DNA from: Ilex aquifolium
Taxonomy: Eukaryota > Streptophyta > Magnoliopsida > Aquifoliales > Aquifoliaceae
Length of the DNA stretch: 64,000 nt
NCBI GenBank assembly: GCA_951799425.1
Contig: OX637404.1
Span: 22,006,545-22,070,544 of the forward strand
Direction: 5' to 3'
Part shown: positions 6,994-64,000 of the stretch, in pieces
How the letters are laid out: the number at the start of each line of letters is the position of its first letter
How positions within the stretch are numbered: position 1 is the stretch's first letter
Notes under the pieces: model-generated
The model's database searches: none
What the model was told of the DNA's origin: nothing
The model's input: only the letters and a program-made list of their open reading frames with translations
Program-made: the position numbers and the translations under genes

Positions 6994-7403
6994 CTGTGTC
7001 TTCCTTCGATCTGTCTCCCTCTACCCATTTCTGTGTCTCTTGTCTCTTTCTCTCTCTCTTTATTTGGTATAGCAACTCAAAGGACACTTTAAACCCCCAA
7101 CAGCTCACCAGTTGTGGCTGCATCGTCTTCTTCCAAGAATTCATTACCCAGGTATGGCGCTCTCTATATGTGTGTGTATATAGAGCCCATCTCCTCTCTC
7201 TATCGGCTCCCATTAAACCCCATCGAAAACCCATCTCTCTCTTTCCAAAATATGTGTATTATATTTTCTGATTTTGTGGTCTCTTTGAATTTATGGTCAG
7301 TGATTAGGGTTGTTTTTCGTAACCCATTTCTCTTTTTTTTCCCGTATAAAATAAATTACACATTTGATTTTCTGAACTTCTTAAAAATTGTGATTGGTTT
7401 TGT

Positions 7404-7520
7404 ATGGATGGATTTGGGACATCGTCTACAACATCTACCACGAAAACTCGACTTAAGTCAGTCAACGAGCAAGTTGAAGACCCAAATTTCTTTAAATTTA
7501 TATATCCCAACTTAGAAATA
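7404..7520 (+). other. Possible upstream coding exon in the first intron of gene A
   Basis: A 39-codon frame from an ATG at 7404 reads MDGFGTSSTTST, then KTRLKSVNEQVED and PNFFKFIYP. It ends in TAG near 7521. The composition looks protein-like, and the FFK stretch recalls the start of plant B3 domains, but only as a short match. No donor keeps it cleanly in frame with the next exon. It could be an alternative first exon or a remnant; the identical stretches lie at 29148-29264 and 50886-51002. Confidence 0.25.
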
Positions 7521-7529
7521 TAGTTCGTG

Positions 7530-7650
7530 GGTTACAAGTTGTCTGTGTGGTTGGTTACAAGTTTTCTGAGTGGTTGGTTATTTTCGGAGAGGTGGGTTAC
7601 AACTTTTAGGAGTTGTGGGTTACAACTTTTGGTGGAGTTCGATATGGTTT
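7530..7650 (+). repeat. Small island of 22-bp-family units inside gene A's leader intron
   Basis: Several GGGTTACAACTTTT and GGTTACAAGTT units lie here. They match the GGTTCCAACTTTT family that forms the long arrays elsewhere. Equivalents lie at 29274-29394 and 51012-51132. Confidence 0.6.
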
Positions 7651-7891
7651 AGATTGTGTTAAAAGCTTTGTGGATTAGGTTATGCCTGTTCAATAGGTTA
7701 TGTTTGATTAAGAGCAGATTTCTTATGGCTGCTTATGGTCTGATTTTATTGTTTAGGACTTCTTACTTATATAGATATATCCAAATGTTAATATGTAAAT
7801 GATTTCATTATGTTTGGTTTATGTGTCTTGTTACTAACCATGACAAAGCTAAATTTGGCAGGCTTTTTCTTTGTTCAATAGAAGTACAACA

Positions 7892-10800
7892 ATGTAAGTA
7901 CTTCTTGTTGAAATGTTTGGAATACTCAGATTCTTTTGTATTAGGTTAACAACATAGTGCATTGTACAGGACCAAGAAGAGGCAATTTGAAGGAGAAGAA
8001 GTGAAGCATCAATCGTCCGTTAAAAAAGTTAATATCAAACTCAAATTTTTTGTAAGCATTACATTCAACAATTTTCATGGATTCACTAATTCGCATACTG
8101 TTGCACAATTTTGCAGAATATACTTGGAACCCGATGCTCACCCCAAAAGGTAGTACGCTTAGTTGCAACATTAACGGATGAACAGAAACATGGGGTGGAA
8201 GAAATTGGAATGGGGGGCTTGTTAAGTTTGAAAATCCACAATATTAAGAGGGGGCTTTGTGGGTGGTTACTTGAACAATTTGATCCAAATTGTTGTACCT
8301 TGAACGTATTCAACAAATCCATCAAATTTTGTCCTGAGGATGTGGAGTACATTTTGGGGTTGCATTGTGGAGGGGATGATTTGGAAACCAACGTATCCAC
8401 ATCGAGAATAAGTGATGTTACAAAGGATATTTTTGAAGGAAAATTTATCTTGTCAACGATTGATATTGGGAAGAAAATAAAGAAAATGAAAAAAGATTCT
8501 CAACAATTCCGGCGATACTTTGTGTTGTATGTTATTGGTGTTTTCCTGTGCCCATCAATGAAAATAAAAATTAGTAGGCACTTTCTTCCCATTGTTGAAG
8601 ACGTGGCATCTTTGAAGTCTAAGAACTGGGCAAAGTTTGTATTTGACTACATGATTCAGGCGGTACGTGACTACAAGATGGCTCCTCGCAACAGTATCAA
8701 GGGTTGCATTATTCTCCTCATGGTGACGTATTATACCCATTGATTATTTCCTTCTAATTTTGCTTTTACTTAATAATAATTAGTTATTTGTTTTCGTCTA
8801 AGTAGATTTTCTTCTTTGAACGCGTCACACCTATGGGGGAGAATCTTGTTCCTTTGGCCTCACGACCCACCCCCCGCATTGGAGAATGGGATGACATAAA
8901 AATAGGTGCGCGCCTTGTGCAGCTAAAGAAATTAGGTGGATATAAAAATGACAAGGTAAGTCATTTGTATCATATCAGTACAACACACATCATGGTTTAT
9001 TTTGTATATTAATGAGATCTACCATTATTTGTGGATGTATATTGAATGGTTGACGTAGATTAAGGTGACGGTTAATGATGTGTGCCACCGGCCATCGACT
9101 GATGCATGCGTCAAAGTAGAAGCAAATGTATGTTTATTACTCAACACCCTATATTGCTACCATCTGTATTACGAAATACCCAATGTAAATTGTTAATTTG
9201 TTCATAACTTGTTCCTTTGTTTACATATTGTTCAATTGTTCAGGATTTTGATTCAAGATTGTCCAGATTAGAGGTGGCACAGACGAGAGTGAAATTAGAT
9301 TTTCGGGATTTTTCACTCAAGGTTGACGTCGAGCTTTCTACTATGAAAGACTTATTAAAGAATTTATCTGACCGAGTCAACGCCATCGGTAACAAATCAG
9401 AAGGTGTTGAGGAATTGAATAAGAAAGAAAGAGGTGATGAGAAATTTGATACAAAAATTATTGATGATGATGACGGTGATGACGACGGCAGCGTACGTGA
9501 CTCATTTCATACTTTTGTAATTGTTTGGATATTAGAATACCAGGTAATATTGGTTATTTGTGTTCATAACATTGCAGGATGAAGATGATATTGATATGCC
9601 AGAAGGGGGGTACCCTCACATAACAATAGTCCTGCCAAGCCACGAGGAGTCAATATGGGAGTACATACTGGATAATTCGTTAGGAAAATCGTAAGTGAAT
9701 ACATAATTTATCAAACCGTAATCTTTCAGAATAATTGGTACGCTGCATTGACAAATTGGTCCCATTTCAACACATGCAGAGAGGTTCTTGTTGATTTCGA
9801 AGAAACTATATTTCGGGCGACTCGGAAGTCAATGCAGTCCTTATGGGGAACAGAGTGGATAGTTGATGATGTAAGTGGATTGCTTTTGAATGGATTATTA
9901 CCATCAATTATTGTGCCAAAGCAGTTTATAATACCCAATAATTTATTTTTGTCCGTATTAACAGGTGATAAATATGGTTCACTGTGTTCTGCCACCCGAT
10001 ACCAAGATCAACCGCATCAACCAAAATGCCAGATGGTACTTCCCAACATTGTTTTCGGTAAAGTATCCATACTCCTCATTGTTGGGTTATGTGATACTCA
10101 TGATATATGTTTGTTAATCGTTTATATTTAATGAATGTTTTTGCCAGCAAGCAGCAGTTGCAAGGAAGAATAAAGGAAAAAATGTCTTAAATTCAGTTAT
10201 TAGACAAACTTTTTCTCGTTTCATTGGTGACATTAAAAATTGTGATAAGGTATGACATTCTCATTTTATACATATAGTTCCTTCTCATTAATTATGGTGA
10301 ACATAATTGTATGTGTGTTTGTGTATGCTAATTTCTCATTGTATTATATTCGTGTGGTTGTAGATATATTTACCAATAAATGATGCAAATTCGCATTGGT
10401 ACCTCACTATAGTAGATGTCCCAAAAAAGGAAATCATGCTTCTCGATACTTTGCCTAATGCTCAAAGGAATATGATACGCGTTCAGCAGGCAAAGAAAAC
10501 GGTAACGTTTGTACAACCAAAAATTTTTAGGGCTTCTTTAATGAAGTACCTGTCATCTAACGCATTAAAATAATAGGTGATGGTGTTGTATCATCTAATA
10601 CGTGAGGTGACCACCACCAATGTCGAACAAATGCATGAATGGCCGATTGTTCGGCCAAACTGGGTGCCGGTACAGAAGAATGGGTATGATTGTGGTATGT
10701 ATGTCATATTCATGATCCAAGAGCCGGAGTTGGGTCCAGATTTCCCTATCCAGGTGTTAATTTTTTGCATACATGACATTACTATGTTACTGTTAACTTC

Positions 10801-10980
10801 AATATAGTATTGTATTTTGCGTGGTTGAGTTAAGTTAGTGTTGTTTTACAAATGCTCTTGTAGGAACCTACCACAGAAATGCGGAGGGAATTAGGCCTCA
10901 AATTGGTCACACACGACAATAACATAAAGAGAGATGCCACAATATATAAGGCAGTAATGCGTTCATATATGAAGAACTAA
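7892..10980 (+). CDS. Gene A copy 1: Ulp1/SENP-type (C48) SUMO protease-like protein
   Basis: Coding parts: 7892-7893, 7970-8051, 8117-8722, 8806-8955, 9059-9127, 9244-9492, 9578-9690, 9780-9870, 9965-10057, 10148-10249, 10364-10501, 10577-10753, 10864-10980. All join in phase and give 662 aa with GT..AG introns. Residues ~29-280 form a transposon-associated N-terminal domain (LGTRCSP, IGMGGLLSLK, LEQFDP, CPEDVEYILGL) also found in gene B. Residues ~304-386 are coiled-coil-like and end in an Asp-rich tract. Residues ~455-640 are the peptidase: His530 (SHWYL), Asp547 (LLDT, 17 residues on), Gln598 and Cys604 (NGYDCGMYV), spaced as in yeast Ulp1. C48 enzymes cleave SUMO precursors or conjugates; the substrate here is unknown. 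The ATG is split by an intron (AT|G at 7893/7970), with a non-coding first exon ending at 7151. It is intact, with no transposase beside it. Carriage by a Mutator-like (Kaonashi) element is a possible origin. Confidence 0.85.
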
Positions 10981-11464
10981 TTAATTCAGTGGTAAGCTAT
11001 ACCAATTTGTCAAAGTTGGAGGTTTTTTCAAACTTCTTTAATTTTTAAATAAATATATATTAATATTTTTTGCAATTGACTGAATTAGTGGGTTCTACCC
11101 TTTGTTGGTGGAGTTTTTATGTTGGGTAGGGTTAGAGAGGTTTTTTGTATTTGGTTCCTACTTTTGGGTTGTGATTCCAACTTTTATGGATTATGTTCCA
11201 ACTATTTGTTTGGGGTTACAACTAGAGTGGATTACAATTTGTTGGGGTGGGTTCCAACTTGTGGTGCTTGAAATTTTCCTGCATGCAAAAGAGTTGTAAC
11301 CCTTCATTAAAGTTGTACCACATCCCAATAGAGATGTACCCAAATACAAAAAGAGTTGTATTTCTCACATATAATGTGAAGGTAATGTGTAGCTGATTTC
11401 TTGGCTTCCAGTCAAGATAAGGAGCTTCACTGATTTGACGATGACTTGCCTGGGGAGGTTATTG
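10981..11464. repeat. 3' flank of gene A copy 1 with 22-bp-family units in both orientations
   Basis: Units of the GGTTCCAACTTTT type (about 11090-11265) are followed by the complementary type, AGTTGTACCACATCC (about 11290-11360). No gene is seen. The same stretch occurs at 32725-33208 and 54463-54946. Confidence 0.6.
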
Positions 11465-12925
11465 ATGCTACATTAATATCCCAATATAGTTGTACCCACA
11501 TCCAAAATAGTTGTACCCACATTCAAAAAAATATTGTTGGATGAGTTGTATGTTTGTGTTTGCTTTGGCAGTGAAACCATCATTTCGAAAGCATTTAGTC
11601 CAACCACAGAGAGCGTGGTGCTGAGTTTGAAGGTGCTGGACGCCTAGTTATAACAGGCCTACCAGCTTGAGAATCCATGGTGTATCACATCGTTTAAAAA
11701 GGTATGTCTCACATCGTTAAGTTACCCCATGGAGAAAATATGACACTCGTCATAACTATTGTTGAAGCTTGTTCGCAATTTGGAATTCCAAATTTTATGG
11801 ATTATTTTCCGACTATTTGGGCGGGGATACAACTACATTGGATTACAATTTGTTTGTGTGGGTTACAACTTGTGTATTAATGTGTTATTATTTTTTTGGT
11901 CTGTCTCTAATCTAGGGCATTGGTAACTGAAACATGGTTTATGGGACCTGTTTGTCTGTATAATATTCTGTGGTAGAACCTTCTGGAAGTTTGAGGTTGG
12001 AGGTTATTGCTCCTACATTAACATCCCAAGATAGTTGTACCCCCAACCCAAATAGTTGTACCACATCCTTTTCTCTCCACTTCTGGACTGTTCCTTATTC
12101 TCTACTTCTCCTGCTTCAGTAGGGTTTTTACTGCAAGATGGCATTTGAGGGAGAGAGTGTGATATCGAACTCAAGTTCAGTCACCACTTTTCGGTATGCT
12201 ACTTTAATATCCCAATATAGTTGTACCCACATCCAAAATAGTTGTACCCACATTTAAAAAAATGTTGTTGGCTGAGTTGTATGTTTGTGTTTGCTTTGGC
12301 AGTGAAACCATCATTTCGAAAGCATTTAGTCCAACCACATAGGGCGTGGTGCTGAGTTTGAAGGTGCTGGACGCCTAGTTATAACAGGCCTACCAGAGCA
12401 GCTTGAGAATCCATGGTGTATCACATCGTTTAAAAAGGTATGTCTCACATCGTTAAGTCACCCCATGGAGAAAATATGACACTCGTCATAACTATTGTTG
12501 AAGCTTGTTCGCAATTTGGAATTCCAAATTTTATGGATTATTTTCCGACTATTTGGGCGGGGATACAACTACATTGGATTACAATTTGTTTGTGTGGGTT
12601 ACAACTTGTGTATTAATGTGTTATTATTTTTTTGGTCTGTCTCTAATCTAGGGCATTGGTAACTGAAACATGGTTTATGGGACCTGTTTGTCTGTATAAT
12701 ATTCTGTGGTAGAACCTTCTGGAAGTTTGAGGTTGGAGGTTATTGCTCCTACATTAACATCCCAAGATAGTTGTACCCCCAACCCAAATAGTTGTACCAC
12801 ATCCTTTTCTCTCCACTTCTGGACTGTTCCTTATTCTCTACTTCTCCTGCTTCAGTAGGGTTTTTACTGCAAGATGGCATTTGAGGGAGAGAGTGTGATA
12901 TCGAACTCAAGTTCAGTCACCACTT
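11465..12925. repeat. Internal ~731-bp tandem duplication (copy 1)
   Basis: 11465-12195 and 12196-12925 are close copies. They differ by C/T, A/G and A/C at three sites near 12255-12272, by CACAGAGAGCG versus CACATAGGGCG, by a 5-bp insertion (ACCAGAGCAGCTTG), and by TTAAGTTACC versus TTAAGTCACC. Both halves contain AGTTGTACCCACATCC units of the 22-bp family and a frame starting MAFEGESVISN that runs toward the zinc-finger fragment at 12999. No intact gene is present. Confidence 0.85.
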
Positions 12926-14835
12926 GTTTCCCAACCCATATTCAGACTCACACCCAGTCCCCCACCCCCAACCCCAAAGGTGGAGATTCTAATTTTAGCT
13001 CTCTGCAAAAAACATAATCAAGTTCAAAAGAAAGGGCTTTCGGTGTCAAAAGAAAGGGCATTGGGCAAAAGACTGCCCCAGCAGAACCCCAAAGAAACCA
13101 GAGCCATCCATTCCCAAACTGTATGTTACCGCCGCTGGTTTTCAGTATTCCCCTTGCATTTTGTGTCCTTGTGGTGCCGGGACTTGCCTCCTGCTTACCT
13201 CTAATACCGACAAGAACCCTTGTCGCAAGTTCTATAGCTCCCCCAACAAGGTGACTCACAGGGAGCATTGAGTGGTGAATGCATGTGAAGTACTTGCCTG
13301 CCACTACTTTGGAAACCATGTCAAGTAAAAAGTGGGGACTCACAGGGAGCATTGAGTGGTGAAAGCATCTATACTGCAGGAGGCAAAGCCTGAGATTCCA
13401 AGAATTATCCAGATTACTTAAACATTATTTCAAATATTGCATGGTAACCAAAGCCTTACATTAATTTTATCCCAAGTATTAGAATTCTAAACATGTACTA
13501 TTTCTTGCTTAGAAAATATCGTTTGCTAATAATTTCGAATATATGTCCACGCATGTCCTAACTTTTTCATTCATTGACAATTATTTGCCTTGTTATTGGG
13601 TTAAATTCATAGTGGTGTAATGTATTACTTGCATATGCACATAGGGGTTCGTGTGGTGGTCTTTTAAATATTTGCTTTCATTGTTACAACCAGTAAAGGG
13701 GACATGGAGCAAGCCAGTGATAAATCCCTAAACCTAGCCCTATTCAAGTTCATGTAATTTATTTTATGTCGATTTTCTTGTTTGAATTGATGGATTCACA
13801 GATCTAACTCTTCCACGTTCAAATCTTCTTCTCTTGTAACTTAAGGTAAGATATTATTATACTTGTGTATGTGTATGCCATTTTTTTGGAAAAAGTGTTG
13901 ATTTATTGTAATTGGAGAGTTATTGGGGGATAATAGGAAGTAGGGTTTTCAATTTTTTTTAATGGAAACAGATAGGTGTTTATAGAACTTTTTGACAAAA
14001 CTGGGAAAGCACGAATTTTTCGTATGTTTAAGCCTTATTTTGCCTTATTTTAATTTAGTATTGGTAAATTCACAGGTACTTGTGGGCAATGGAAGGCCAG
14101 TGGACTTTCAGTGGTAAATCCCCTTTTGGTGTTCCAACTGGCTTGGTACTGGTCCTCTGTTAAATAGGATTGGAGAGAATCCTTCATGATTTCCAAGTCT
14201 ATCTGAGGGTATGGGAAAGAGGGGAGAGGCAATGCATCCTCTCAACAAGGTGAGTTCATTTATGCTCTTCCGATCTCTTGATGATGATCATGATGGTTGA
14301 GTACTTAATTTTTTTGCCCCTTTTTATTTTGCTAGTTTCAGTTAAACAATTGTTGCCTTGATTTAGGAAGGCAAATGCCAAGTTTTTAAGTGGTCTGAAA
14401 TGGTGAGATCTGAAGAAATCCTCTATGCTCCAATTTGCGTTTGTGGTGCTGCACTTTGCCGTATACATATTGAAACAAGTGGGCCAAATGCGGGTCGCAA
14501 GTTATTTGTCTGCCATACTACTAGTTTAATTTTTTCCTCTTCAACTTACGTTGTTGGGTTGTGTCAAATGTTCATGTTTAATTGTTAATTTAATGACGTA
14601 CTTTCAGGGATAGTCTCCGGCTTCTCCCGGAGAATAGCAAGGCCTCAGTAGTAGCATCAAATGCTCTTTTCTACAACGTATTCAGGATGATGATGGATGT
14701 GGCTGCTATGCAAGAACTATGGTCAAAGGGGGATAATCACTGTGTCGTGCACCCTGGTGTGAGTGGCATATCTGGTTATGATCTTGTAATGTGGAGCTGG
14801 GGAAAACAATTTATGACAAATGTGTTTGAGAGTTA
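12840..14835 (+). pseudogene. Captured CCHC/GRF zinc-finger gene fragment, TOP3A-like (copy 1)
   Basis: Two exon-like blocks are clear. 12999-13250 reads through a zinc knuckle (FRCQKKGHWAKDCP, first Cys replaced by Gly) and into a GRF finger (CPCGAGTCLLLTSNTD, NPCRKFYSSP), ending at a donor (AACAAG|GTGACT). 14367-14523 continues it in phase (EGKCQVFKWSE) and holds a second GRF finger (CVCGAALC, GPNAGRKLFVC). CCHC plus repeated GRF fingers is the C-terminal arrangement of plant DNA topoisomerase 3-alpha. The catalytic part is absent. Upstream, the frame starting MAFEGESV near 12875 shifts close to 12990. A 3' block at about 14609-14835 has an open frame (DSLRLLPENSK) that I do not recognise. 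A 27-bp direct repeat (GACTCACAGGGAGCATTGAG...) lies in the intron at 13253 and ~13338. Another GRF protein is possible. Confidence 0.6.
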
Positions 14836-15282
14836 ATGGTGAATGTTTCATCTGTATTCACCATGCATCACAAAGCCTTGACTTTCATAATACTGCATGT
14901 TTAATGCTTGCTATGATGAATGGTTGCCTCATTTCTTTAAGTTCTTAGGTACCTGAATGGTTCACCATGCATCACAAAGCCTTGACTTTCGTTGTATTTT
15001 TTAGCTCTTTACATGTAAGTTCAATTTAATTCATAAGAAGAGAGTCCAAATCTGGAAATTCAGGTATGCAAAATCCGATTATATGTAACATGACACATAA
15101 TAATATGATTTATATAATAAGGTGTTGCCTTCAAACAAAATGAAGGCATGATAACCTGTTCGTACAAATCTAGCATTATAACTTAAAATTTTTTGTATCA
15201 CCACACCCATTGACATCCAAAACCCAAAATGGCTTGTTTGAAGCATATAGACAAGACTACTAACAACGAACCACCAACCAGC
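14836..15282. repeat. Spacer with a ~30-bp direct repeat
   Basis: TTCACCATGCATCACAAAGC followed by CTTGACTTTC occurs near 14861 and again near 14959. No gene is seen between the zinc-finger fragment and the 3' end of gene C. The same spacer is at 36580-37026 and 58318-58764. Confidence 0.6.
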
Positions 15283-15887
15283 CTAATCGTCAAGGATGAT
15301 AACCTCTTTATCTGGAATAGGACTCGAAGACGATCCCACACTTTCAACCATCTCTTCTTCCGGTTCGAAAACTTCCTTTAGTTTCTTAAACAAAGGACAT
15401 GTGTTGATGCACCACTTGCTTGCAAACTTGTTTTCCTGCACATTAGTATCGCGGAACTAAAAATCCATAAAATTAGGGGAACAAAAAAAAATATCTACTC
15501 TACTTCCTTACTCATACTTTTTTTTTTTAAATCAATACTTACACGTAAATAATTAGTAGCTCCATCCATCGGACCACCGACAACACACATCATGGTTGTG
15601 CTCCAAGCAAACATCCTTGTTTTCAACATATCTTTTATAGTGAAATATAGCTTCTTCCAGAAAAATATTATCCTGACAAGCTGTATTAGGTCCAAACTAA
15701 AATCCGGCATCCTCCTTTTCAACAAAGCGAACAAATTTATGAAGTTGTCAGCCGTGAACTTCCCTCGTTCAAGTACTATACCCCTTTGTTTATATTCCAG
15801 AAGCGCAGAAATCAACAGTTGACTTTCATCATCAGCAATTCTTGGAACTGCCATTTTTTCTAAGCAATATTGTACAATAGGTGACAT
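15283..15887 (-). CDS. Gene C copy 1: MYB/SANT-like DNA-binding domain protein
   Basis: Two coding exons on the minus strand, 15887-15543 and 15435-15283, join in phase (CGT|GTAAGT donor, GTGCAG acceptor) to give 165 aa ending VIILDD. Residues ~12-135 fit the MYB/SANT-like fold of plant and PIF/Harbinger accessory proteins: DDESQLLISALLEYKQRG, GKFTADNFINL, FALLKRRMPDFSLDLIQL, a WKKLYFTIKDML helix, then KWCINTCPLFKKLKEVF. The conserved Trp at the start of the first helix is missing. The tail is acidic and Ser-rich. This family binds DNA and, in Harbinger elements, partners the transposase; no Harbinger transposase is visible here. The start could be MSPIVQ (15887) or MAVPRI (15854). A CT-rich leader lies upstream near 16700-16800. 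Confidence 0.72.
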
Positions 15888-16960
15888 GCGCAGAACTAGT
15901 AGCACGTAAATTATATCACAACATGAAATTAACATGGTATATAACATTAATACGAGTTATGTTCCAACACATACAGAGACCGACACATATATATATAGGG
16001 GTTCAAAGAGAGAGAGAGAGAGATGGGGAAGTGGTAGAGGGGTTCATAGACAGATAGACAGAATGTGGGAGATGGTGAGGTGCTACCCCTGACCTCGGAG
16101 CGAACTAAATTGGCTAGCACAATCGATCACCTAACATTTGAGAATTTCCATCCATCGGGACCACCACTGATTTTTTTTCCTAGTAATGCATAATTATAAA
16201 AATATAGTAATGAATAATTATAAAAAACGATATCAATAAATCAATTACATTACCATTTTTTCATTTTGTAAAATTTGTATCTTTGATATCTTATCAAATA
16301 TTAACAAGATCTAATAATATTAGCAACTTAAAAAATTAATAAACATTCCCAACTTTCTAATTCCACCATCCGTTGTAATTATAAATATATCACTTCTGTC
16401 TTTCCACTTCTTCTAGGTTGCCGTTCACGCCTTACATCGACAAATGTTGCCAAAAAACACCACCACCCTACTACCACATCGTTTGGTCTCTATTATAAAC
16501 GTCATGCATTATGCTATTGTCCTGAGTTGACATACACAAAATTGAAATGAATAAAATCGAGTTCTCAAATTCAAATTCAATCTAAAATACAGAGAAGAGA
16601 AATGGAAAGAGAGAGGACATGGGAAGGGGACAGGGTTTGGCGTGTGTGGGTGTGTGTGTAAAGCAGAGGACGAAGAGAGGAAAAAAGATAGAGAAAAACC
16701 TTCAGAGCTGTCTGTTGTGCTAACGTTGTAGCTGTGGCGGTGGCGATTGGAGTCGTCAGAGAGAGAGAGACCTAATTTAAGGGAGATGGGGAGGTGGTAG
16801 AAGAGAGGTCGAGAGATATACGATGCAATGTCACATATATATATATATGATGATACTGGGGTTCACAGAGAGACAGAATGAGGGAGATGGGGAGGTGGTA
16901 TACGAGAGGGAGATAGAGAGACAGTGAGATATATATTAAGGTTTTAGTTTAGGGTAAATT
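15888..16960 (-). promoter_or_regulatory. Upstream region of gene C with three GGGAGATGGGGAGGTGGT-type repeats
   Basis: Read on the minus strand, this contains CT-rich leader-like sequence and a possible leader exon ending CTCTGAAG|GTTTTT near 16700. The word GGGAGATGGGGAGGTGGT (or close variants) recurs near 16020, 16780 and 16880, next to short (AG)n and (AT)n tracts. Substitutions that separate copy 1 from copies 2 and 3 fall here (16722, 16834). The exact promoter is not resolvable by eye. Confidence 0.4.
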
Positions 16961-17047
16961 ATATTGGACCCAAATTCATTAAAAATAATTTATGTCCTTA
17001 ATAAAAAGTACCAAAATAATTAGAAAAATACTCTCAAATTTTCATAG

Positions 17048-17109
17048 AGACCATTGGATAAGTGGATCCTATCACTTTTTTGAAATGGGACCCACTGATC
17101 CAATGGTCT
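17048..17109. repeat. Hairpin with 18-bp arms (AGACCATTGGAT...)
   Basis: Arms at 17048-17065 and 17092-17109 pair at 17 of 18 positions, with a 26-nt loop. Weaker pairing (CTCAAAT with ATTTGAG) extends outward. A second hairpin, AAAGTCTTTTT / AAAAAGACTTT, lies at 17279-17310. Together they suggest a degraded MITE. Copies are at 38792-38853 and 60530-60591. Confidence 0.55.
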
Positions 17110-17399
17110 TCCTTGATTTGAGAAAAAAATTTGGATTAAAAATTAATGATACATTGCTCAACTAATTAAACGTAAAATCATATAAAACCATATATACACT
17201 ATATACAATGCTATAATATAGGTCAATTGGATAAAATGTAATATATAATGCTATATTTATATTTTTTAGTGGTTAAAAAAAGTCTTTTTAAGAAGGCTAA
17301 AAAAGACTTTATTTTAAATTATTTAATTTGACTGAGTGAAATTTATTATACAACCGAATCCATTATCAGAATAAATCCACTTTTAAATAAAAAGCCCAC

Positions 17400-17520
17400 A
17401 TTTCATCTCACTTTTTCCATTTCAATCAAACGGCTTGCAATGCATCTTTACCCAAAAAAAATCCCGCCCATAAAGCTACACCCACACGGCACCCCAACCG
17501 ACTCAATTCAAACACTCTCC

Positions 17521-17564
<44 letters not shown>

Positions 17565-19155: not shown

Positions 19156-19279
19156 TTATTTGTGTGGAATGGAAAATATATGAAGAGTTATTTAGATATT
19201 TAATTGGTATTGAGTAATTAAATGCATAATGATATAGTTGTCTTTAATCATTTTTATAGGGGTATTATGGTCAAACAAA

Positions 19280-51373: not shown

Positions 51374-54300
51374 ATGTAAGTACTTCTTGTTGAAATGTTT
51401 GGAATACTCAGATTCTTTTGTATTAGGTTAACAACATAGTGCATTGTACAGGACCAAGAAGAGGCAATTTGAAGGAGAAGAAGTGAAGCATCAATCGTCC
51501 GTTAAAAAAGTTAATATCAAACTCAAATTTTTTGTAAGCATTACATTCAACAATTTTCATGGATTCACTAATTCGCATACTGTTGCACAATTTTGCAGAA
51601 TATACTTGGAACCCGATGCTCACCCCAAAAGGTAGTACGCTTAGTTGCAACATTAACGGATGAACAGAAACATGGGGTGGAAGAAATTGGAATGGGGGGC
51701 TTGTTAAGTTTGAAAATCCACAATATTAAGAGGGGGCTTTGTGGGTGGTTACTTGAACAATTTGATCCAAATTGTTGTACCTTGAACGTATTCAACAAAT
51801 CCATCAAATTTTGTCCTGAGGATGTGGAGTACATTTTGGGGTTGCATTGTGGAGGGGATGATTTGGAAACCAACGTATCCACATCGAGAATAAGTGATGT
51901 TACAAAGGATATTTTTGAAGGAAAATTTATCTTGTCAACGATTGATATTGGGAAGAAAATAAAGAAAATGAAAAAAGATTCTCAACAATTCCGGCGATAC
52001 TTTGTGTTGTATGTTATTGGTGTTTTCCTGTGCCCATCAATGAAAATAAAAATTAGTAGGCACTTTCTTCCCATTGTTGAAGACGTGGCATCTTTGAAGT
52101 CTAAGAACTGGGCAAAGTTTGTATTTGACTACATGATTCAGGCGGTACGTGACTACAAGATGGCTCCTCGCAACAGTATCAAGGGTTGCATTATTCTCCT
52201 CATGGTGACGTATTATACCCATTGATTATTTCCTTCTAATTTTGCTTTTACTTAATAATAATTAGTTATTTGTTTTCGTCTAAGTAGATTTTCTTCTTTG
52301 AACGCGTCACACCTATGGGGGAGAATCTTGTTCCTTTGGCCTCACGACCCACCCCCCGCATTGGAGAATGGGATGACATAAAAATAGGTGCGCGCCTTGT
52401 GCAGCTAAAGAAATTAGGTGGATATAAAAATGACAAGGTAAGTCATTTGTATCATATCAGTACAACACACATCATGGTTTATTTTGTATATTAATGAGAT
52501 CTACCATTATTTGTGGATGTATATTGAATGGTTGACGTAGATTAAGGTGACGGTTAATGATGTGTGCCACCGGCCATCGACTGATGCATGCGTCAAAGTA
52601 GAAGCAAATGTATGTTTATTACTCAACACCCTATATTGCTACCATCTGTATTACGAAATACCCAATGTAAATTGTTAATTTGTTCATAACTTGTTCCTTT
52701 GTTTACATATTGTTCAATTGTTCAGGATTTTGATTCAAGATTGTCCAGATTAGAGGTGGCACAGACGAGAGTGAAATTAGATTTTCGGGATTTTTCACTC
52801 AAGGTTGACGTCGAGCTTTCTACTATGAAAGACTTATTAAAGAATTTATCTGACCGAGTCAACGCCATCGGTAACAAATCAGAAGGTGTTGAGGAATTGA
52901 ATAAGAAAGAAAGAGGTGATGAGAAATTTGATACAAAAATTATTGATGATGATGACGGTGATGACGACGGCAGCGTACGTGACTCATTTCATACTTTTGT
53001 AATTGTTTGGATATTAGAATACCAGGTAATATTGGTTATTTGTGTTCATAACATTGCAGGATGAAGATGATATTGATATGCCAGAAGGGGGGTACCCTCA
53101 CATAACAATAGTCCTGCCAAGCCACGAGGAGTCAATATGGGAGTACATACTGGATAATTCGTTAGGAAAATCGTAAGTGAATACATAATTTATCAAACCG
53201 TAATCTTTCAGAATAATTGGTACGCTGCATTGACAAATTGGTCCCATTTCAACACATGCAGAGAGGTTCTTGTTGATTTCGAAGAAACTATATTTCGGGC
53301 GACTCGGAAGTCAATGCAGTCCTTATGGGGAACAGAGTGGATAGTTGATGATGTAAGTGGATTGCTTTTGAATGGATTATTACCATCAATTATTGTGCCA
53401 AAGCAGTTTATAATACCCAATAATTTATTTTTGTCCGTATTAACAGGTGATAAATATGGTTCACTGTGTTCTGCCACCCGATACCAAGATCAACCGCATC
53501 AACCAAAATGCCAGATGGTACTTCCCAACATTGTTTTCGGTAAAGTATCCATACTCCTCATTGTTGGGTTATGTGATACTCATGATATATGTTTGTTAAT
53601 CGTTTATATTTAATGAATGTTTTTGCCAGCAAGCAGCAGTTGCAAGGAAGAATAAAGGAAAAAATGTCTTAAATTCAGTTATTAGACAAACTTTTTCTCG
53701 TTTCATTGGTGACATTAAAAATTGTGATAAGGTATGACATTCTCATTTTATACATATAGTTCCTTCTCATTAATTATGGTGAACATAATTGTATGTGTGT
53801 TTGTGTATGCTAATTTCTCATTGTATTATATTCGTGTGGTTGTAGATATATTTACCAATAAATGATGCAAATTCGCATTGGTACCTCACTATAGTAGATG
53901 TCCCAAAAAAGGAAATCATGCTTCTCGATACTTTGCCTAATGCTCAAAGGAATATGATACGCGTTCAGCAGGCAAAGAAAACGGTAACGTTTGTACAACC
54001 AAAAATTTTTAGGGCTTCTTTAATGAAGTACCTGTCATCTAACGCATTAAAATAATAGGTGATGGTGTTGTATCATCTAATACGTGAGGTGACCACCACC
54101 AATGTCGAACAAATGCATGAATGGCCGATTGTTCGGCCAAACTGGGTGCCGGTACAGAAGAATGGGTATGATTGTGGTATGTATGTCATATTCATGATCC
54201 AAGAGCCGGAGTTGGGTCCAGATTTCCCTATCCAGGTGTTAATTTTTTGCATACATGACATTACTATGTTACTGTTAACTTCAATATAGTATTGTATTTT

Positions 54301-54462
54301 GCGTGGTTGAGTTAAGTTAGTGTTGTTTTACAAATGCTCTTGTAGGAACCTACCACAGAAATGCGGAGGGAATTAGGCCTCAAATTGGTCACACACGACA
54401 ATAACATAAAGAGAGATGCCACAATATATAAGGCAGTAATGCGTTCATATATGAAGAACTAA
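51374..54462 (+). CDS. Gene A copy 3: Ulp1/SENP-type (C48) protease-like protein
   Basis: Third intact copy, offset by 43482 bp from copy 1. Coding parts run from the split ATG (51374-51375 plus 51452) to the stop at 54460-54462. The catalytic His lies in 53846-53983 and the Cys codon is at 54173-54175. Like copy 2, it has the minisatellite-derived flank instead of the original upstream region. Confidence 0.83.
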
Positions 54463-54946
54463 TTAATTCAGTGGTAAGCTATACCAATTTGTCAAAGTTG
54501 GAGGTTTTTTCAAACTTCTTTAATTTTTAAATAAATATATATTAATATTTTTTGCAATTGACTGAATTAGTGGGTTCTACCCTTTGTTGGTGGAGTTTTT
54601 ATGTTGGGTAGGGTTAGAGAGGTTTTTTGTATTTGGTTCCTACTTTTGGGTTGTGATTCCAACTTTTATGGATTATGTTCCAACTATTTGTTTGGGGTTA
54701 CAACTAGAGTGGATTACAATTTGTTGGGGTGGGTTCCAACTTGTGGTGCTTGAAATTTTCCTGCATGCAAAAGAGTTGTAACCCTTCATTAAAGTTGTAC
54801 CACATCCCAATAGAGATGTACCCAAATACAAAAAGAGTTGTATTTCTCACATATAATGTGAAGGTAATGTGTAGCTGATTTCTTGGCTTCCAGTCAAGAT
54901 AAGGAGCTTCACTGATTTGACGATGACTTGCCTGGGGAGGTTATTG

Positions 54947-56407
54947 ATGCTACATTAATATCCCAATATAGTTGTACCCACATCCAAAATAGTTGTACCC
55001 ACATTCAAAAAAATATTGTTGGATGAGTTGTATGTTTGTGTTTGCTTTGGCAGTGAAACCATCATTTCGAAAGCATTTAGTCCAACCACAGAGAGCGTGG
55101 TGCTGAGTTTGAAGGTGCTGGACGCCTAGTTATAACAGGCCTACCAGCTTGAGAATCCATGGTGTATCACATCGTTTAAAAAGGTATGTCTCACATCGTT
55201 AAGTTACCCCATGGAGAAAATATGACACTCGTCATAACTATTGTTGAAGCTTGTTCGCAATTTGGAATTCCAAATTTTATGGATTATTTTCCGACTATTT
55301 GGGCGGGGATACAACTACATTGGATTACAATTTGTTTGTGTGGGTTACAACTTGTGTATTAATGTGTTATTATTTTTTTGGTCTGTCTCTAATCTAGGGC
55401 ATTGGTAACTGAAACATGGTTTATGGGACCTGTTTGTCTGTATAATATTCTGTGGTAGAACCTTCTGGAAGTTTGAGGTTGGAGGTTATTGCTCCTACAT
55501 TAACATCCCAAGATAGTTGTACCCCCAACCCAAATAGTTGTACCACATCCTTTTCTCTCCACTTCTGGACTGTTCCTTATTCTCTACTTCTCCTGCTTCA
55601 GTAGGGTTTTTACTGCAAGATGGCATTTGAGGGAGAGAGTGTGATATCGAACTCAAGTTCAGTCACCACTTTTCGGTATGCTACTTTAATATCCCAATAT
55701 AGTTGTACCCACATCCAAAATAGTTGTACCCACATTCAAAAAAATATTGTTGGATGAGTTGTATGTTTGTGTTTGCTTTGGCAGTGAAACCATCATTTCG
55801 AAAGCATTTAGTCCAACCACATAGGGCGTGGTGCTGAGTTTGAAGGTGCTGGACGCCTAGTTATAACAGGCCTACCAGAGCAGCTTGAGAATCCATGGTG
55901 TATCACATCGTTTAAAAAGGTATGTCTCACATCGTTAAGTCACCCCATGGAGAAAATATGACACTCGTCATAACTATTGTTGAAGCTTGTTCGCAATTTG
56001 GAATTCCAAATTTTATGGATTATTTTCCGACTATTTGGGCGGGGATACAACTACATTGGATTACAATTTGTTTGTGTGGGTTACAACTTGTGTATTAATG
56101 TGTTATTATTTTTTTGGTCTGTCTCTAATCTAGGGCATTGGTAACTGAAACATGGTTTATGGGACCTGTTTGTCTGTATAATATTCTGTGGTAGAACCTT
56201 CTGGAAGTTTGAGGTTGGAGGTTATTGCTCCTACATTAACATCCCAAGATAGTTGTACCCCCAACCCAAATAGTTGTACCACATCCTTTTCTCTCCACTT
56301 CTGGACTGTTCCTTATTCTCTACTTCTCCTGCTTCAGTAGGGTTTTTACTGCAAGATGGCATTTGAGGGAGAGAGTGTGATATCGAACTCAAGTTCAGTC
56401 ACCACTT
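54947..56407. repeat. Internal ~731-bp tandem duplication (copy 3), with a conversion-like patch
   Basis: Same pair of repeats, but in the second half three neighbouring diagnostic sites (55737 C, 55746 A, 55754 A) carry the first-half state. Second-half states are kept on both sides (CTTTAAT upstream, CATAGGGCG downstream). This is the pattern expected from a short gene-conversion tract. Confidence 0.8.
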
Positions 56408-58317
56408 GTTTCCCAACCCATATTCAGACTCACACCCAGTCCCCCACCCCCAACCCCAAAGGTGGAGATTCTAATTTTAGCTCTCTGCAAAAAACATAAT
56501 CAAGTTCAAAAGAAAGGGCTTTCGGTGTCAAAAGAAAGGGCATTGGGCAAAAGACTGCCCCAGCAGAACCCCAAAGAAACCAGAGCCATCCATTCCCAAA
56601 CTGTATGTTACCGCCGCTGGTTTTCAGTATTCCCCTTGCATTTTGTGTCCTTGTGGTGCCGGGACTTGCCTCCTGCTTACCTCTAATACCGACAAGAACC
56701 CTTGTCGCAAGTTCTATAGCTCCCCCAACAAGGTGACTCACAGGGAGCATTGAGTGGTGAATGCATGTGAAGTACTTGCCTGCCACTACTTTGGAAACCA
56801 TGTCAAGTAAAAAGTGGGGACTCACAGGGAGCATTGAGTGGTGAAAGCATCTATACTGCAGGAGGCAAAGCCTGAGATTCCAAGAATTATCCAGATTACT
56901 TAAACATTATTTCAAATATTGCATGGTAACCAAAGCCTTACATTAATTTTATCCCAAGTATTAGAATTCTAAACATGTACTATTTCTTGCTTAGAAAATA
57001 TCGTTTGCTAATAATTTCGAATATATGTCCACGCATGTCCTAACTTTTTCATTCATTGACAATTATTTGCCTTGTTATTGGGTTAAATTCATAGTGGTGT
57101 AATGTATTACTTGCATATGCACATAGGGGTTCGTGTGGTGGTCTTTTAAATATTTGCTTTCATTGTTACAACCAGTAAAGGGGACATGGAGCAAGCCAGT
57201 GATAAATCCCTAAACCTAGCCCTATTCAAGTTCATGTAATTTATTTTATGTCGATTTTCTTGTTTGAATTGATGGATTCACAGATCTAACTCTTCCACGT
57301 TCAAATCTTCTTCTCTTGTAACTTAAGGTAAGATATTATTATACTTGTGTATGTGTATGCCATTTTTTTGGAAAAAGTGTTGATTTATTGTAATTGGAGA
57401 GTTATTGGGGGATAATAGGAAGTAGGGTTTTCAATTTTTTTTAATGGAAACAGATAGGTGTTTATAGAACTTTTTGACAAAACTGGGAAAGCACGAATTT
57501 TTCGTATGTTTAAGCCTTATTTTGCCTTATTTTAATTTAGTATTGGTAAATTCACAGGTACTTGTGGGCAATGGAAGGCCAGTGGACTTTCAGTGGTAAA
57601 TCCCCTTTTGGTGTTCCAACTGGCTTGGTACTGGTCCTCTGTTAAATAGGATTGGAGAGAATCCTTCATGATTTCCAAGTCTATCTGAGGGTATGGGAAA
57701 GAGGGGAGAGGCAATGCATCCTCTCAACAAGGTGAGTTCATTTATGCTCTTCCGATCTCTTGATGATGATCATGATGGTTGAGTACTTAATTTTTTTGCC
57801 CCTTTTTATTTTGCTAGTTTCAGTTAAACAATTGTTGCCTTGATTTAGGAAGGCAAATGCCAAGTTTTTAAGTGGTCTGAAATGGTGAGATCTGAAGAAA
57901 TCCTCTATGCTCCAATTTGCGTTTGTGGTGCTGCACTTTGCCGTATACATATTGAAACAAGTGGGCCAAATGCGGGTCGCAAGTTATTTGTCTGCCATAC
58001 TACTAGTTTAATTTTTTCCTCTTCAACTTACGTTGTTGGGTTGTGTCAAATGTTCATGTTTAATTGTTAATTTAATGACGTACTTTCAGGGATAGTCTCC
58101 GGCTTCTCCCGGAGAATAGCAAGGCCTCAGTAGTAGCATCAAATGCTCTTTTCTACAACGTATTCAGGATGATGATGGATGTGGCTGCTATGCAAGAACT
58201 ATGGTCAAAGGGGGATAATCACTGTGTCGTGCACCCTGGTGTGAGTGGCATATCTGGTTATGATCTTGTAATGTGGAGCTGGGGAAAACAATTTATGACA
58301 AATGTGTTTGAGAGTTA
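56322..58317 (+). pseudogene. TOP3A-like CCHC/GRF fragment (copy 3)
   Basis: Identical arrangement to copies 1 and 2. Exon-like blocks are at 56481-56732 and 57849-58005. Confidence 0.6.
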
Positions 58318-58764
58318 ATGGTGAATGTTTCATCTGTATTCACCATGCATCACAAAGCCTTGACTTTCATAATACTGCATGTTTAATGCTTGCTATGATG
58401 AATGGTTGCCTCATTTCTTTAAGTTCTTAGGTACCTGAATGGTTCACCATGCATCACAAAGCCTTGACTTTCGTTGTATTTTTTAGCTCTTTACATGTAA
58501 GTTCAATTTAATTCATAAGAAGAGAGTCCAAATCTGGAAATTCAGGTATGCAAAATCCGATTATATGTAACATGACACATAATAATATGATTTATATAAT
58601 AAGGTGTTGCCTTCAAACAAAATGAAGGCATGATAACCTGTTCGTACAAATCTAGCATTATAACTTAAAATTTTTTGTATCACCACACCCATTGACATCC
58701 AAAACCCAAAATGGCTTGTTTGAAGCATATAGACAAGACTACTAACAACGAACCACCAACCAGC

Positions 58765-59369
58765 CTAATCGTCAAGGATGATAACCTCTTTATCTGGAAT
58801 AGGACTCGAAGACGATCCCACACTTTCAACCATCTCTTCTTCCGGTTCGAAAACTTCCTTTAGTTTCTTAAACAAAGGACATGTGTTGATGCACCACTTG
58901 CTTGCAAACTTGTTTTCCTGCACATTAGTATCGCGGAACTAAAAATCCATAAAATTAGGGGAACAAAAAAAAATATCTACTCTACTTCCTTACTCATACT
59001 TTTTTTTTTTAAATCAATACTTACACGTAAATAATTAGTAGCTCCATCCATCGGACCACCGACAACACACATCATGGTTGTGCTCCAAGCAAACATCCTT
59101 GTTTTCAACATATCTTTTATAGTGAAATATAGCTTCTTCCAGAAAAATATTATCCTGACAAGCTGTATTAGGTCCAAACTAAAATCCGGCATCCTCCTTT
59201 TCAACAAAGCGAACAAATTTATGAAGTTGTCAGCCGTGAACTTCCCTCGTTCAAGTACTATACCCCTTTGTTTATATTCCAGAAGCGCAGAAATCAACAG
59301 TTGACTTTCATCATCAGCAATTCTTGGAACTGCCATTTTTTCTAAGCAATATTGTACAATAGGTGACAT
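58765..59369 (-). CDS. Gene C copy 3: MYB/SANT-like protein
   Basis: Third copy of the two-exon gene, with exons at 59369-59025 and 58917-58765. The reading frame is intact. Confidence 0.72.
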
Positions 59370-61002
59370 GCGCAGAACTAGTAGCACGTAAATTATATCA
59401 CAACATGAAATTAACATGGTATATAACATTAATACGAGTTATGTTCCAACACATACAGAGACCGACACATATATATATAGGGGTTCAAAGAGAGAGAGAG
59501 AGAGATGGGGAAGTGGTAGAGGGGTTCATAGACAGATAGACAGAATGTGGGAGATGGTGAGGTGCTACCCCTGACCTCGGAGCGAACTAAATTGGCTAGC
59601 ACAATCGATCACCTAACATTTGAGAATTTCCATCCATCGGGACCACCACTGATTTTTTTTCCTAGTAATGCATAATTATAAAAATATAGTAATGAATAAT
59701 TATAAAAAACGATATCAATAAATCAATTACATTACCATTTTTTCATTTTGTAAAATTTGTATCTTTGATATCTTATCAAATATTAACAAGATCTAATAAT
59801 ATTAGCAACTTAAAAAATTAATAAACATTCCCAACTTTCTAATTCCACCATCCGTTGTAATTATAAATATATCACTTCTGTCTTTCCACTTCTTCTAGGT
59901 TGCCGTTCACGCCTTACATCGACAAATGTTGCCAAAAAACACCACCACCCTACTACCACATCGTTTGGTCTCTATTATAAACGTCATGCATTATGCTATT
60001 GTCCTGAGTTGACATACACAAAATTGAAATGAATAAAATCGAGTTCTCAAATTCAAATTCAATCTAAAATACAGAGAAGAGAAATGGAAAGAGAGAGGAC
60101 ATGGGAAGGGGACAGGGTTTGGCGTGTGTGGGTGTGTGTGTAAAGCAGAGGACGAAGAGAGGAAAAAAGATAGAGAAAAACCTTCAGAGCTGTCTGTTGT
60201 GCTGACGTTGTAGCTGTGGCGGTGGCGATTGGAGTCGTCAGAGAGAGAGAGACCTAATTTAAGGGAGATGGGGAGGTGGTAGAAGAGAGGTCGAGAGATA
60301 TACGATGCAATGTCATATATATATATATATGATGATACTGGGGTTCACAGAGAGACAGAATGAGGGAGATGGGGAGGTGGTATACGAGAGGGAGATAGAG
60401 AGACAGTGAGATATATATTAAGGTTTTAGTTTAGGGTAAATTATATTGGACCCAAATTCATTAAAAATAATTTATGTCCTTAATAAAAAGTACCAAAATA
60501 ATTAGAAAAATACTCTCAAATTTTCATAGAGACCATTGGATAAGTGGATCCTATCACTTTTTTGAAATGGGACCCACTGATCCAATGGTCTTCCTTGATT
60601 TGAGAAAAAAATTTGGATTAAAAATTAATGATACATTGCTCAACTAATTAAACGTAAAATCATATAAAACCATATATACACTATATACAATGCTATAATA
60701 TAGGTCAATTGGATAAAATGTAATATATAATGCTATATTTATATTTTTTAGTGGTTAAAAAAAGTCTTTTTAAGAAGGCTAAAAAAGACTTTATTTTAAA
60801 TTATTTAATTTGACTGAGTGAAATTTATTATACAACCGAATCCATTATCAGAATAAATCCACTTTTAAATAAAAAGCCCACATTTCATCTCACTTTTTCC
60901 ATTTCAATCAAACGGCTTGCAATGCATCTTTACCCAAAAAAAATCCCGCCCATAAAGCTACACCCACACGGCACCCCAACCGACTCAATTCAAACACTCT
61001 CC

Positions 61003-61006
<4 letters not shown>

Positions 61007-61039
<33 letters not shown>
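61007..61039. repeat. (CT)n microsatellite, copy 3
   Basis: 33 bp, 16 CT units plus C, one unit longer than copy 2. The same orphan first exon follows. Confidence 0.95.
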
Positions 61040-61042
<3 letters not shown>

Positions 61043-61584
61043 CTCTCACCTCTCGATGCTCTGCTTAAGAAGACCCAACGCAATCTCACTCTCTCCTTTT
61101 CTCTCCCAAATCGCCTTCTACCATGGCGCAGGTACCTCTCTGTCTCACGACTCACACACACAATCCAAGACACACACACAGATCCCACACCCTATACGTC
61201 TCTCTATCTCACGATTTTTAGACAGTCGAACACACACACTAGCACACACATATCGCAGATACAGAAACCCACCCACACAAATACATTGCACATATAGATA
61301 CACACCCACACATACATCGCACTCAGTCATCCACTCACCTATACACACACACAGAGCAGTAGCAGCAATTTACCGTTGGAGCTTTAAAATTGAATTTTAG
61401 GGTTATTTTGACTCCAATGGGTGTTATTTTGATTGAAATGTTCGGGTTGATTATTTTAATGAAATACTATATTTAGTGTGTTGATTGAGATTTACAGTCA
61501 ATTTCATGAAATAGGGTTTGTTGGGTGTTGGTGATTATTGTACGTTAATTGCATGAAATGGTTTTTTTGGACGTTATTATAAGA

Positions 61585-62633
61585 CTAGTTGATGCACGTG
61601 TGCATGGACCATTTTGAAGTCTAACGTTTTTTTATACTTTTTTAGTAAAGTATTGCTTGGCCAAATTATTATTCAAAGAAATTACATTAAAACATAAATA
61701 ATGAGCTAGATTCCAACTTAAAGCAGTTCAATTTCAAGACTTTATTAAGCAGTTCAATTTCAAGAGTACTATAGAGTTAGCTCAAAGAAATCTACCAAAA
61801 TTGAAAAACATCCGCCACCACAACTAATAAGCACATTGCATGTTGACTGACCTCCACCATTGGAACACCATTAACACACATATAACTTATATCTACATGT
61901 CACTATACATGTATACAGTTGTCATATAAATATATATAAATGCATGCACAACATTTTTTCTCAAAGTAAAACCCATAACAACTCATATTGATTTCAGTGT
62001 TTGATCAAAGGCGACGGAGAACCAGAATCATGATCCTCTCACATGAATGACTTTCAGTATTCAGAAACTAAAGTTTTTTTTGGATGTAATACATGCTTGG
62101 TATAAAAAAGAGATTATGGTGGGACATATATGGTGGTTGTTGACCGTAGGAAGAATATGAAATGAATACAAAATAGTAAATCTAGAGGAAGAGCAAAAGT
62201 CATACAAGTTATTCTTTGCGGGAGGGAGAGCGAAAGTCATTAAGGATATTCTCTAGATTTAGTATTTTTGTCAAGGTTAAAATATAGATTCAAAAATTTT
62301 GAAGATTAATTAACATTTTAAATTAGTATAGAATAGATATAGATAAAAATTTATTCATTACACTTGTAATTGAATATTTATTTCTAGAATATGAATGGTC
62401 TAAGATTTAAATTAGAAAATAGCATATGTTTGTCTTTATATAATTTTTTAAGGATTGAAAGAGAAAATAAAAGTTTTTCTTTGTAAGGTACTTTTAGAAA
62501 TAATATAGATAGAAATATAGATATAGATAGATATATATTATTATTATCTATATTATAAATTGGATGTATACTGAATATTTATTTTTTTAAGTTTAGAAAG
62601 ATATATAGATATAGATATAGATATTCATATAGA
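61585..62633 (-). mobile_element. Candidate non-autonomous Helitron (copy 3)
   Basis: Same element as at 18107-19155, at the same place in the third segment. Confidence 0.45.
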
Positions 62634-63655
62634 TTATTTGTGTGGAATGGAAAATATATGAAGAGTTATTTAGATATTTAATTGGTATTGAGTAATTAAA
62701 TGCATAATGATATAGTTGTCTTTAATCATTTTTATAGGGGTATTATGGTCAAACAAAAGTTGTACCCCCACCACCAAAATTATAACCAAGAGTTGGACTC
62801 ACATCCAAAATAGTTGTACCCCCACATTCAATAATAGAGTTGGACTCACATCCAAAAAAGTTGTAACCAACATTAATTGAGTTGTACCCCTATCCATACA
62901 CTCATCCAAAAGAGTTGTAATCCTACCTTTAAAGTTGTACCCTAACCATTAAAGGTGTACCTACATCCAAGTTTGTGATGTTGACTTCATTATTTTAAGG
63001 TGGAGGAGATTAAAATTAACATATTTTTCTTTTAGTTTGACATTTATACAAATTCAATTGAATTTTAGTTTGTAGTTATTTTGTTCTTAATAATTTTATT
63101 GGGATTGTTTAATTATTTGGGATTGTTCAATTTTGTAGCCACACGTAATTGGATACCAAAAATTGTATAGAGAGTGAAGCTGCTTGCTCCACTACATTTG
63201 TTGAAAGCTCCTCTCATTGCTTGCAAGGTTATGTGCTTCTCTTAGTTTGTTTATTTTTTATTTGATTTGTTTGCTTGATTGAGTAAATTTGTCTTGATTA
63301 TGCAATGGATTGTGTTGGGTAATGATATATATAATGACATATATAAACTCAGCTTTAGATTTTTTTAAGCTCCTACCTTTATAGGAAATTCTGTTGACTA
63401 TTTTTTAAAAAAAATAGTGGACACTTGATTTATTCAATTTCTTTAATTAAAGCAAATGAAGGAAAATTTATTTCAAATTGACGAGTTTTTTTAGATGGGA
63501 AACTGCATTTAGCCATGGGTTATTGCTAGAAGGGAAATAGGGGGTGACTTACAAGGCTAAAAATAGATTGAATTAGTACTTTATGATCATTAAAGAATTG
63601 AATTAGTACTTTATGATGCTCCAATAATAGATTGTTCAGCAAACAAAATACATAC

Positions 63656-64000
63656 CTCATGTCAAGGGACGTGTCAAATATGTAATTGAAGACAAACAAT
63701 TTGTCTTCAGTAGTTATTTTGTCGATGGGTGGATACTCCACATCTAATGATGGGTTCCACGCAGTACTAGAGTCTGAAATCTGCTTATAAATTAAAGAGA
63801 GTCTGAAATCTAGTTATAGTTATAAAATACAAAGAGGTGGTAATAATTGGACAGTTGTTTATGTTAAATATGGAATACAAACCTCATGTATGGCCACCGT
63901 GGGGGTGTGGTGACGTAGCAAGCCTTGTGTAATTTTGTTAACCTTACTAGCATTTACACTCGGGGTGTGGTGCTCGTGCAAGTCTTGTGTAATTTTGTTA
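63656..64000 (-). CDS. Gene B copy 3, 3' end only (window edge)
   Basis: The last recognised exon (63780-63656) and the beginning of the next one upstream (from 63883, cut at 64000) are present and match copies 1 and 2. The HMG-box part, if present, lies beyond the window. Confidence 0.75.

Follow-up and report, generated by a model that had tools for sequence, protein, structure and literature searches.

A near-identical 21.7-kb head-to-tail array of transposon-type genes in Ilex aquifolium, probably a recent tandem amplification

Tandem amplification is a known type of event in plants. At the cucumber F locus, as its report describes, copies of a 30.2-kb repeat lie head to tail, unequal crossing-over changes their number, and the joint gives the copied gene a recombinant upstream region, the second copy having a recombinant distal promoter (PMC7072070). 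The kochia EPSPS repeats of 56.1 and 32.7 kb are likewise described as a tandem amplification with a mobile element, located at the repeat borders, around a selected gene, and unequal crossing-over has been proposed for them (PMC6808082). A tandem four-gene block of varying number is reported from soybean Rhg1 (PMC6712407). The genes considered here resemble those of Ulp1-carrying mobile elements such as Kaonashi and VANDAL. VANC proteins, which contain DUF1985, are encoded by the VANDAL elements of Arabidopsis, described as clustering with those of other Brassicaceae. VANC21 is reported to bind to a short motif located in non-coding tandem repeats, and VANC proteins to bring about a loss of DNA methylation; AGTTGTCC and AGTTGTAC are given as the motifs of VANC6, and the variable regions of VANC proteins contain peptide repeats (PMC5735166). 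VANC genes carrying Ulp1 are described as Kaonashi (PMC13317346), and DUF1985, partly together with Ulp1, is a feature of Kaonashi and VANDAL elements in further accounts (PMC10398659, PMC6446971). Ulp1 regions are also reported from CACTA elements, in five families of grapevine, and are described there as common among plants (PMC2528002), so that Ulp1 alone, although present here too, does not indicate a Mutator element.

Self-comparison of the window, the whole 64,000-base stretch of DNA that was analysed, revealed a 21.7-kb unit repeated head to tail in almost identical form, with 2.6 copies visible (Table 1). By self-BLAST, positions 28738-64000 matched 6994-42260 at 99.955%, with 8 mismatches and 2 gaps in an alignment of 35,269 positions, and 50476-64000 matched 6994-20522 at 99.926% over 13,529 aligned positions (6 mismatches, 1 gap); the dominant k-mer offsets in the window were 21738 and 21744. 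The joint at the end of copy 1 recurs at 50475/50476, and there are no N bases in the 64,000-base window. With at least two head-to-tail copies of many kilobases and one recurring joint, the locus has the form of a plant segmental tandem amplification, and the copies, tens of kilobases long, are comparable to those of the cucumber F locus. The array, its joints, the differences among its copies and its contents were read directly from the window, and the array may extend past the window end. The first-pass annotation had described a near-identical 21.74-kb unit in at least three copies with the same joint; the near-identity (99.93-99.96%), the head-to-tail order and the recurring joint were borne out, but only 62% of the third copy lies inside the window.

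Table 1. Coordinates of the array, its genes and repeats, and the sites that differ among copies. Difference sites are given in copy-1 coordinates, with states listed as copy 1/2/3.
Feature	Position	Strand	Description	Basis
PF20167 'putative plant transposon protein' ORF, left flank, outside unit	1790..3160	+	E 1.5e-28, 100.3 bits, cut-off 45	
Weak CT-rich repeat across left edge 6993/6994	6973..7040	+	period 20, 64% matches, score 62	
Copy 1 of 21.74-kb unit	6994..28737	+	21,744 bp	self-BLAST, k-mer offsets, copy alignment
Copy 2	28738..50475	+	21,738 bp	self-BLAST, copy alignment
Copy 3, ends with window	50476..64000	+	13,525 bp, 62% of unit	self-BLAST, copy alignment
Joint 1	28718..28757	.	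unit end ...TGACCC meets unit start CTGTGTC...	copy alignment
Gene 1	8090..10804	+	DUF1985/PMD ORF 8090-8740; Ulp1 (C48) pieces 10364-10570, 10577-10804	
AGTTGTAC cluster A	11311..12797	+	9 motifs at 0.5-2.0 kb beyond the final Ulp1 piece of gene 1	
R1 of internal 725/730-bp tandem duplication	11465..12189	+		self-comparison
R2 of internal 725/730-bp tandem duplication	12196..12925	+		self-comparison
Gene fragments	12999..14833	+	CCHC knuckle and GRF 12999-13268; second GRF 14367-14585; SnoaL-like piece 14597-14833	
AGTTGTAC cluster B	19280..19462	+	4 motifs, 2.4 kb past DUF1985 ORF of gene 2	
Gene 2, putative extent from ORFs	20051..22792	-	HMG half-box, DUF1985/PMD ORF, proline-rich peptide repeats	
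AT-rich 20-bp minisatellites, both orientations	23500..26250	.		
22-bp minisatellite	26252..28522	+	some 104 degenerate units of TTTTTGGGTAGGGGTTCCAACT (AGTTGGAAC... on the reverse strand)	
Substitution	12255		T/T/C	aligned copies, site re-read
Substitution	12264		G/G/A	aligned copies, site re-read
Substitution	12272		C/C/A	aligned copies, site re-read
Substitution	16722		A/G/G	aligned copies, site re-read
Substitution	16834		C/T/T	aligned copies, site re-read
(TC)n length	17524		19/16/17 repeats	aligned copies, site re-read
Substitution	19929		T/T/A; T6A8 run in copy 3 against T7A7 in the other two	
Substitution	23889		T/A; site lies beyond the visible part of copy 3	
Substitution	27503		G/A; site lies beyond the visible part of copy 3	

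Alignment of the three copies, a check that the first-pass annotation had proposed, yielded an exact list of nine differing sites. For copies 1 and 2, its count of four substitutions plus a single change of length in (CT)n was exact (16722, 16834, 23889 and 27503, with a 6-bp change between (TC)19 and (TC)16), and the few further differences it had noticed in copy 3 are those at 12255, 12264, 12272 and 19929. Copy 1 is thus defined by A, C and 19 TC repeats, copy 2 by G, T and 16, and copy 3 by the copy-2 states G and T, 17 TC repeats and three sites resembling R1, the first half of an internal duplication. The longest run without any difference between copies 1 and 2 measured 10,957 bp and crossed the joint, and that between copies 2 and 3 measured 5,261 bp within the 13.5 kb they share. 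The further remark that even unstable minisatellites had kept their unit number holds for the large arrays, but these are degenerate, so that their stability says little about age, and the (TC)n microsatellite did change. At a plant mutation rate of 7e-9 per site per generation, the 4 differences in 21,738 bp would correspond to about 13,000 generations (3,600-34,000 from counting error alone), an estimate of little weight; homogenisation would make the first duplication older.

The internal R1/R2 duplication recurs in every copy. Its halves are separated by 7 substitutions and an indel of 5 bp in copies 1 and 2, and R1 is identical across all three copies. The R2 of copy 3, however, has the R1 state at three of these seven substitutions, all within 18 bp, with the flanking differences at 12203 and 12340 unconverted, which would limit a converted tract to 18-136 bp. 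A single conversion tract of this size likely accounts for the cluster better than three separate mutations, mis-polishing being the alternative.

The right end of the unit lies 215 bp past the 22-bp minisatellite, and its start is a CT-rich point about 1.1 kb upstream of the DUF1985-Ulp1 gene (gene 1). The final base of the unit differs from the final base of the left flank of copy 1, so that no homology is visible on that side of the joint, the one side on which it could be judged because the ancestral right flank falls outside the window. Unlike the kochia repeats, whose borders are described as carrying a mobile element (PMC6808082), the joint shows no recognised element end. Across the left edge, the last 60 bases of the flank aligned with the first 80 of the unit with a score of 28, against 13 for the last 60 bases of the unit, and the CT-rich 20-bp repeat common to both sides hints that flank and copy 1 were originally contiguous and that copy 1 is parental. 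A score of 28 was reached by 13 of 4,892 random 60-mers and by 10 of 2,000 dinucleotide shuffles, and also by 56 of 245 overlapping, equally CT-rich 60-mers of the window; on that last control we rejected the repeat as proof of an ancestral left edge.

We scanned positions 1-28737 for Pfam domains, with E limits of 1, 0.1 and 0.01 and with the arrays at 1-1300, 3550-6310 and 23500-28600 masked; this covered all 75 stop-to-stop ORFs with a minimum length of 60 aa, of which 60 start inside the unit. Six exceeded a Pfam cut-off (1790-3160, 10364-10570, 10577-10804, 12999-13268, 14367-14585 and 22505-22792), among them those with the HMG half-box, the CCHC knuckle and the two GRF zinc fingers. The Ulp1 domain (PF02902) is found in gene 1 only, in two pieces whose scores, 36.3 and 32.0 bits, exceed the cut-off of 20.7; the pieces are separated by two stop codons, unless these are spliced out with an intron, and we infer that the pieces of gene 1 belong to one gene. 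Gene 1 matches DUF1985 with 26.9 bits (E 5.2e-6) and gene 2 with 19.8 bits (E 8e-4), in each case below the cut-off of 35.1, and the PMD matches (29 and 24.8 bits) likewise fall below theirs of 34.9. The DUF1985/PMD ORF of gene 2 (21843-22541, minus strand) is 47% identical to that of gene 1 over 212 aligned positions, and the proline-rich peptide repeats of gene 2 are encoded by a 36-bp repeat at 21378-21503. Directly upstream of this ORF, as if fused to it, lies the second half of an HMG box (PF09011/PF00505; 22505-22792, minus strand); a literature search confined to the joint occurrence of at least three such features turned up no case with an HMG box. The row of CCHC, GRF and SnoaL-like pieces, the last of them weak and under its cut-off, looks like captured fragments of host genes. 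The domain families as a whole point to a plant as the source of the DNA. Recognisable genes, which may not be intact, exist in what the first-pass annotation had called a gene-bearing unit, but they are of transposon type (DUF1985/PMD, Ulp1) or are fragments. This distinguishes them from the host resistance genes of the soybean Rhg1 block, although both units hold several genes, and also from the cucumber F locus, which is reported to carry a trait gene with a tested effect (PMC7072070).

Neither a MURA/VANA (MULE) nor a CACTA transposase domain was seen in the same 75 ORFs outside the masked arrays. The unit is therefore not established as a VANDAL element, and no element ends were recognised. 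It resembles Kaonashi and VANDAL elements in its sub-threshold DUF1985 matches, partly with Ulp1, in peptide repeats, short ones being present in gene 2 and also in the PF20167 ORF of the left flank, and in a motif in non-coding tandem repeats. That motif, AGTTGTAC of VANC6, occurred 39 times in the window against 1.82 expected, a number reached by 0 of 100 shuffles; the 39 represent 13 per unit (0.78 expected) in three near-identical copies. All were found on the plus strand in two repeat-borne clusters downstream of DUF1985 genes, cluster B also lying 0.6 kb beyond the final minus-strand ORF attributed to gene 2, and four of the 13 are copies made by the R1/R2 duplication, which leaves 9. 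In contrast, neither AGTTGTCC (1 against 1.60 expected) nor YAGTATTAY (5 against 3.08 expected, a count attained in 17 of 100 shuffles) was enriched in the window. In the non-redundant 28,737 bases, 218 of 32,896 8-mers are as frequent as AGTTGTAC, or 23 of 7,168 at the same G+C; outside the large arrays the corresponding figures are 15 of 32,896 and 1 of 7,168, the one being AGTTGTAC itself, with the overlapping GTTGTACC slightly commoner at 14. Chance agreement at one to two per cent is possible, as tandem repeats raise some 8-mers and three motifs were tried. The related AGTTGGAAC of the 22-bp arrays occurred 60 times on the minus and once on the plus strand in positions 1-28737. In combination, DUF1985 and AGTTGTAC point to VANC rather than to CACTA.

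We consider that a real, recent tandem amplification of a transposon-rich plant segment best explains the array, and put the probability of this reading, as judged from the sequence, at roughly 70%. A single-copy segment of the chromosome would have undergone a head-to-tail duplication in which its right end was joined, with no visible homology, to the CT-rich point upstream of the DUF1985-Ulp1 gene. Once two 21.7-kb copies stood in direct order, unequal crossing-over, the process also proposed for kochia, could have added further copies, and gene conversion could have kept them alike. Copy 1 probably occupies the parental position with its original upstream sequence, which the end of the unit would replace before gene 1 in copies 2 and 3; if copy 1 is parental, the gene nearest the joint has acquired a new upstream region in those copies, much as at the cucumber locus. 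The parental copy, the order of events and the recombination mechanism are what we infer from the pattern. Support for a real array comes from the two identical joints and the lack of N bases, and from the three copy states, which exceed the two alleles of a diploid single-copy locus, an argument that polyploidy or consensus errors would weaken. The R1-like cluster of copy 3, with unconverted sites on either side, is as gene conversion would leave it, and accurate reads longer than the difference-free runs could have separated the copies. The first-pass annotation had offered recent amplification and false duplication as alternatives, and its first alternative is the one to which the three copy states, the identical joints and the absence of a gap incline us.

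A false or miscounted duplication, in which the assembler joined allelic or repeated read paths head to tail over a locus of one or some other number of copies, is nevertheless a serious if unlikely alternative. In three older vertebrate assemblies false duplications accounted for 4 to 16% of the sequence, and the marks listed for them are a read depth that is halved or very low, gaps separating the copies, discordant linked reads and single-copy k-mers (PMC9516828); of these, a gap between copies is absent here. The identity of 99.93-99.96% is in a range in which read noise can probably decide, and the differences are few, several of them in error-prone sequence: the (TC)n, the site in the T/A run and two minisatellite sites lie where consensus errors are expected. 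The authors of HiCanu warn of mis-polishing in repeats (PMC7545148), and the R1-like cluster in copy 3 could be of that origin. A purely allelic artefact, however, would not be expected to make an end-to-start joint, which some read must have supplied, and three distinct states are more than two alleles provide. Very unlikely in our judgement is a 21.7-kb extrachromosomal circle with joined ends, re-inserted or unrolled by the assembler; a joint free of homology and a strict head-to-tail order would fit it equally well, but left flank and unit start look continuous, which suits duplication in place better. The CT-rich repeat common to flank and unit start lends that continuity weak support, and its lack of specificity in the CT-rich control takes slightly from the weight of amplification in place and adds slightly to that of the circle. 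That the unit is itself a transposon inserted in tandem, for example a Mutator-like element without inverted ends, seems highly improbable: its DUF1985/PMD and Ulp1 domains and its motif repeats resemble those of Kaonashi and VANDAL elements, but the ORF scan gave no Mutator transposase, and the 22-bp and AT array families, which recur in the left flank at 70-86% identity among the best 60 matches, are not confined to the unit.

If the amplification is real, it offers a fresh example of plants multiplying segments of tens of kilobases, at a stage early enough for its joint, its earliest differences and what is likely a gene-conversion tract to be read. The event type being known, its interest lies in an unproven connection with anti-silencing. 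A non-autonomous pair of DUF1985 genes, of which one has Ulp1 and the other an HMG box, might form, together with putative target repeats of its own (AGTTGTAC and the derived AGTTGGAAC 22-mers), a stationary anti-silencing island multiplying as the 21.7-kb unit, an idea we regard as speculative and rather improbable. Were it true, the VANC6-type AGTTGTAC would have persisted, or arisen anew, beyond the Arabidopsis elements published so far, and open chromatin made by anti-silencing might favour tandem recombination. The association of DUF1985/Ulp1 genes with AGTTGTAC repeats leads to a hypothesis: proteins of this family may go on recognising one short motif across different plants, and large minisatellites close to such genes may serve as their targets instead of being junk.

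Further searches returned no Rfam match at gathering scores in positions 1-30000, only matches far below cut-offs in NCBIfam (5 ORFs), no match of the gene 1 exon to phage records at E 1e-5, and no stretch of a 27-base minisatellite pattern in IMG/VR. One IMG/VR locus on a contig that looked phage-like by eye matched the gene 2 exon (54% over 36 residues) and was dismissed as chance, and the tRNA-Pro calls by ARAGORN at 28101-28185 and 49839-49923, which lie inside the 22-bp minisatellite, are probably false. An open frame of 153 aa at 15498-15956 (minus strand), without a convincing Pfam match, is free of differences among the copies.

Within the unit, the 22-bp array has 76% matches at period 22, and the AT array at 24525-24920 has 62% at period 21. 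In the left flank, the PF20167 ORF has an 11-residue repeat near its C terminus (33-bp repeat, 2978-3124) and adjoins a 22-bp minisatellite with a 330-bp higher-order repeat (2.2 copies, 96% matches), ORF and minisatellite lying within 1790-4328. The AT-rich minisatellites of the left flank (4325-5626) and of the unit (23339-25236) are 73-86% alike, and the unit contains a direct repeat of 0.9 kb with 87% identity (23339-24244 and 24263-25236), likenesses that suggest older rounds of local duplication.
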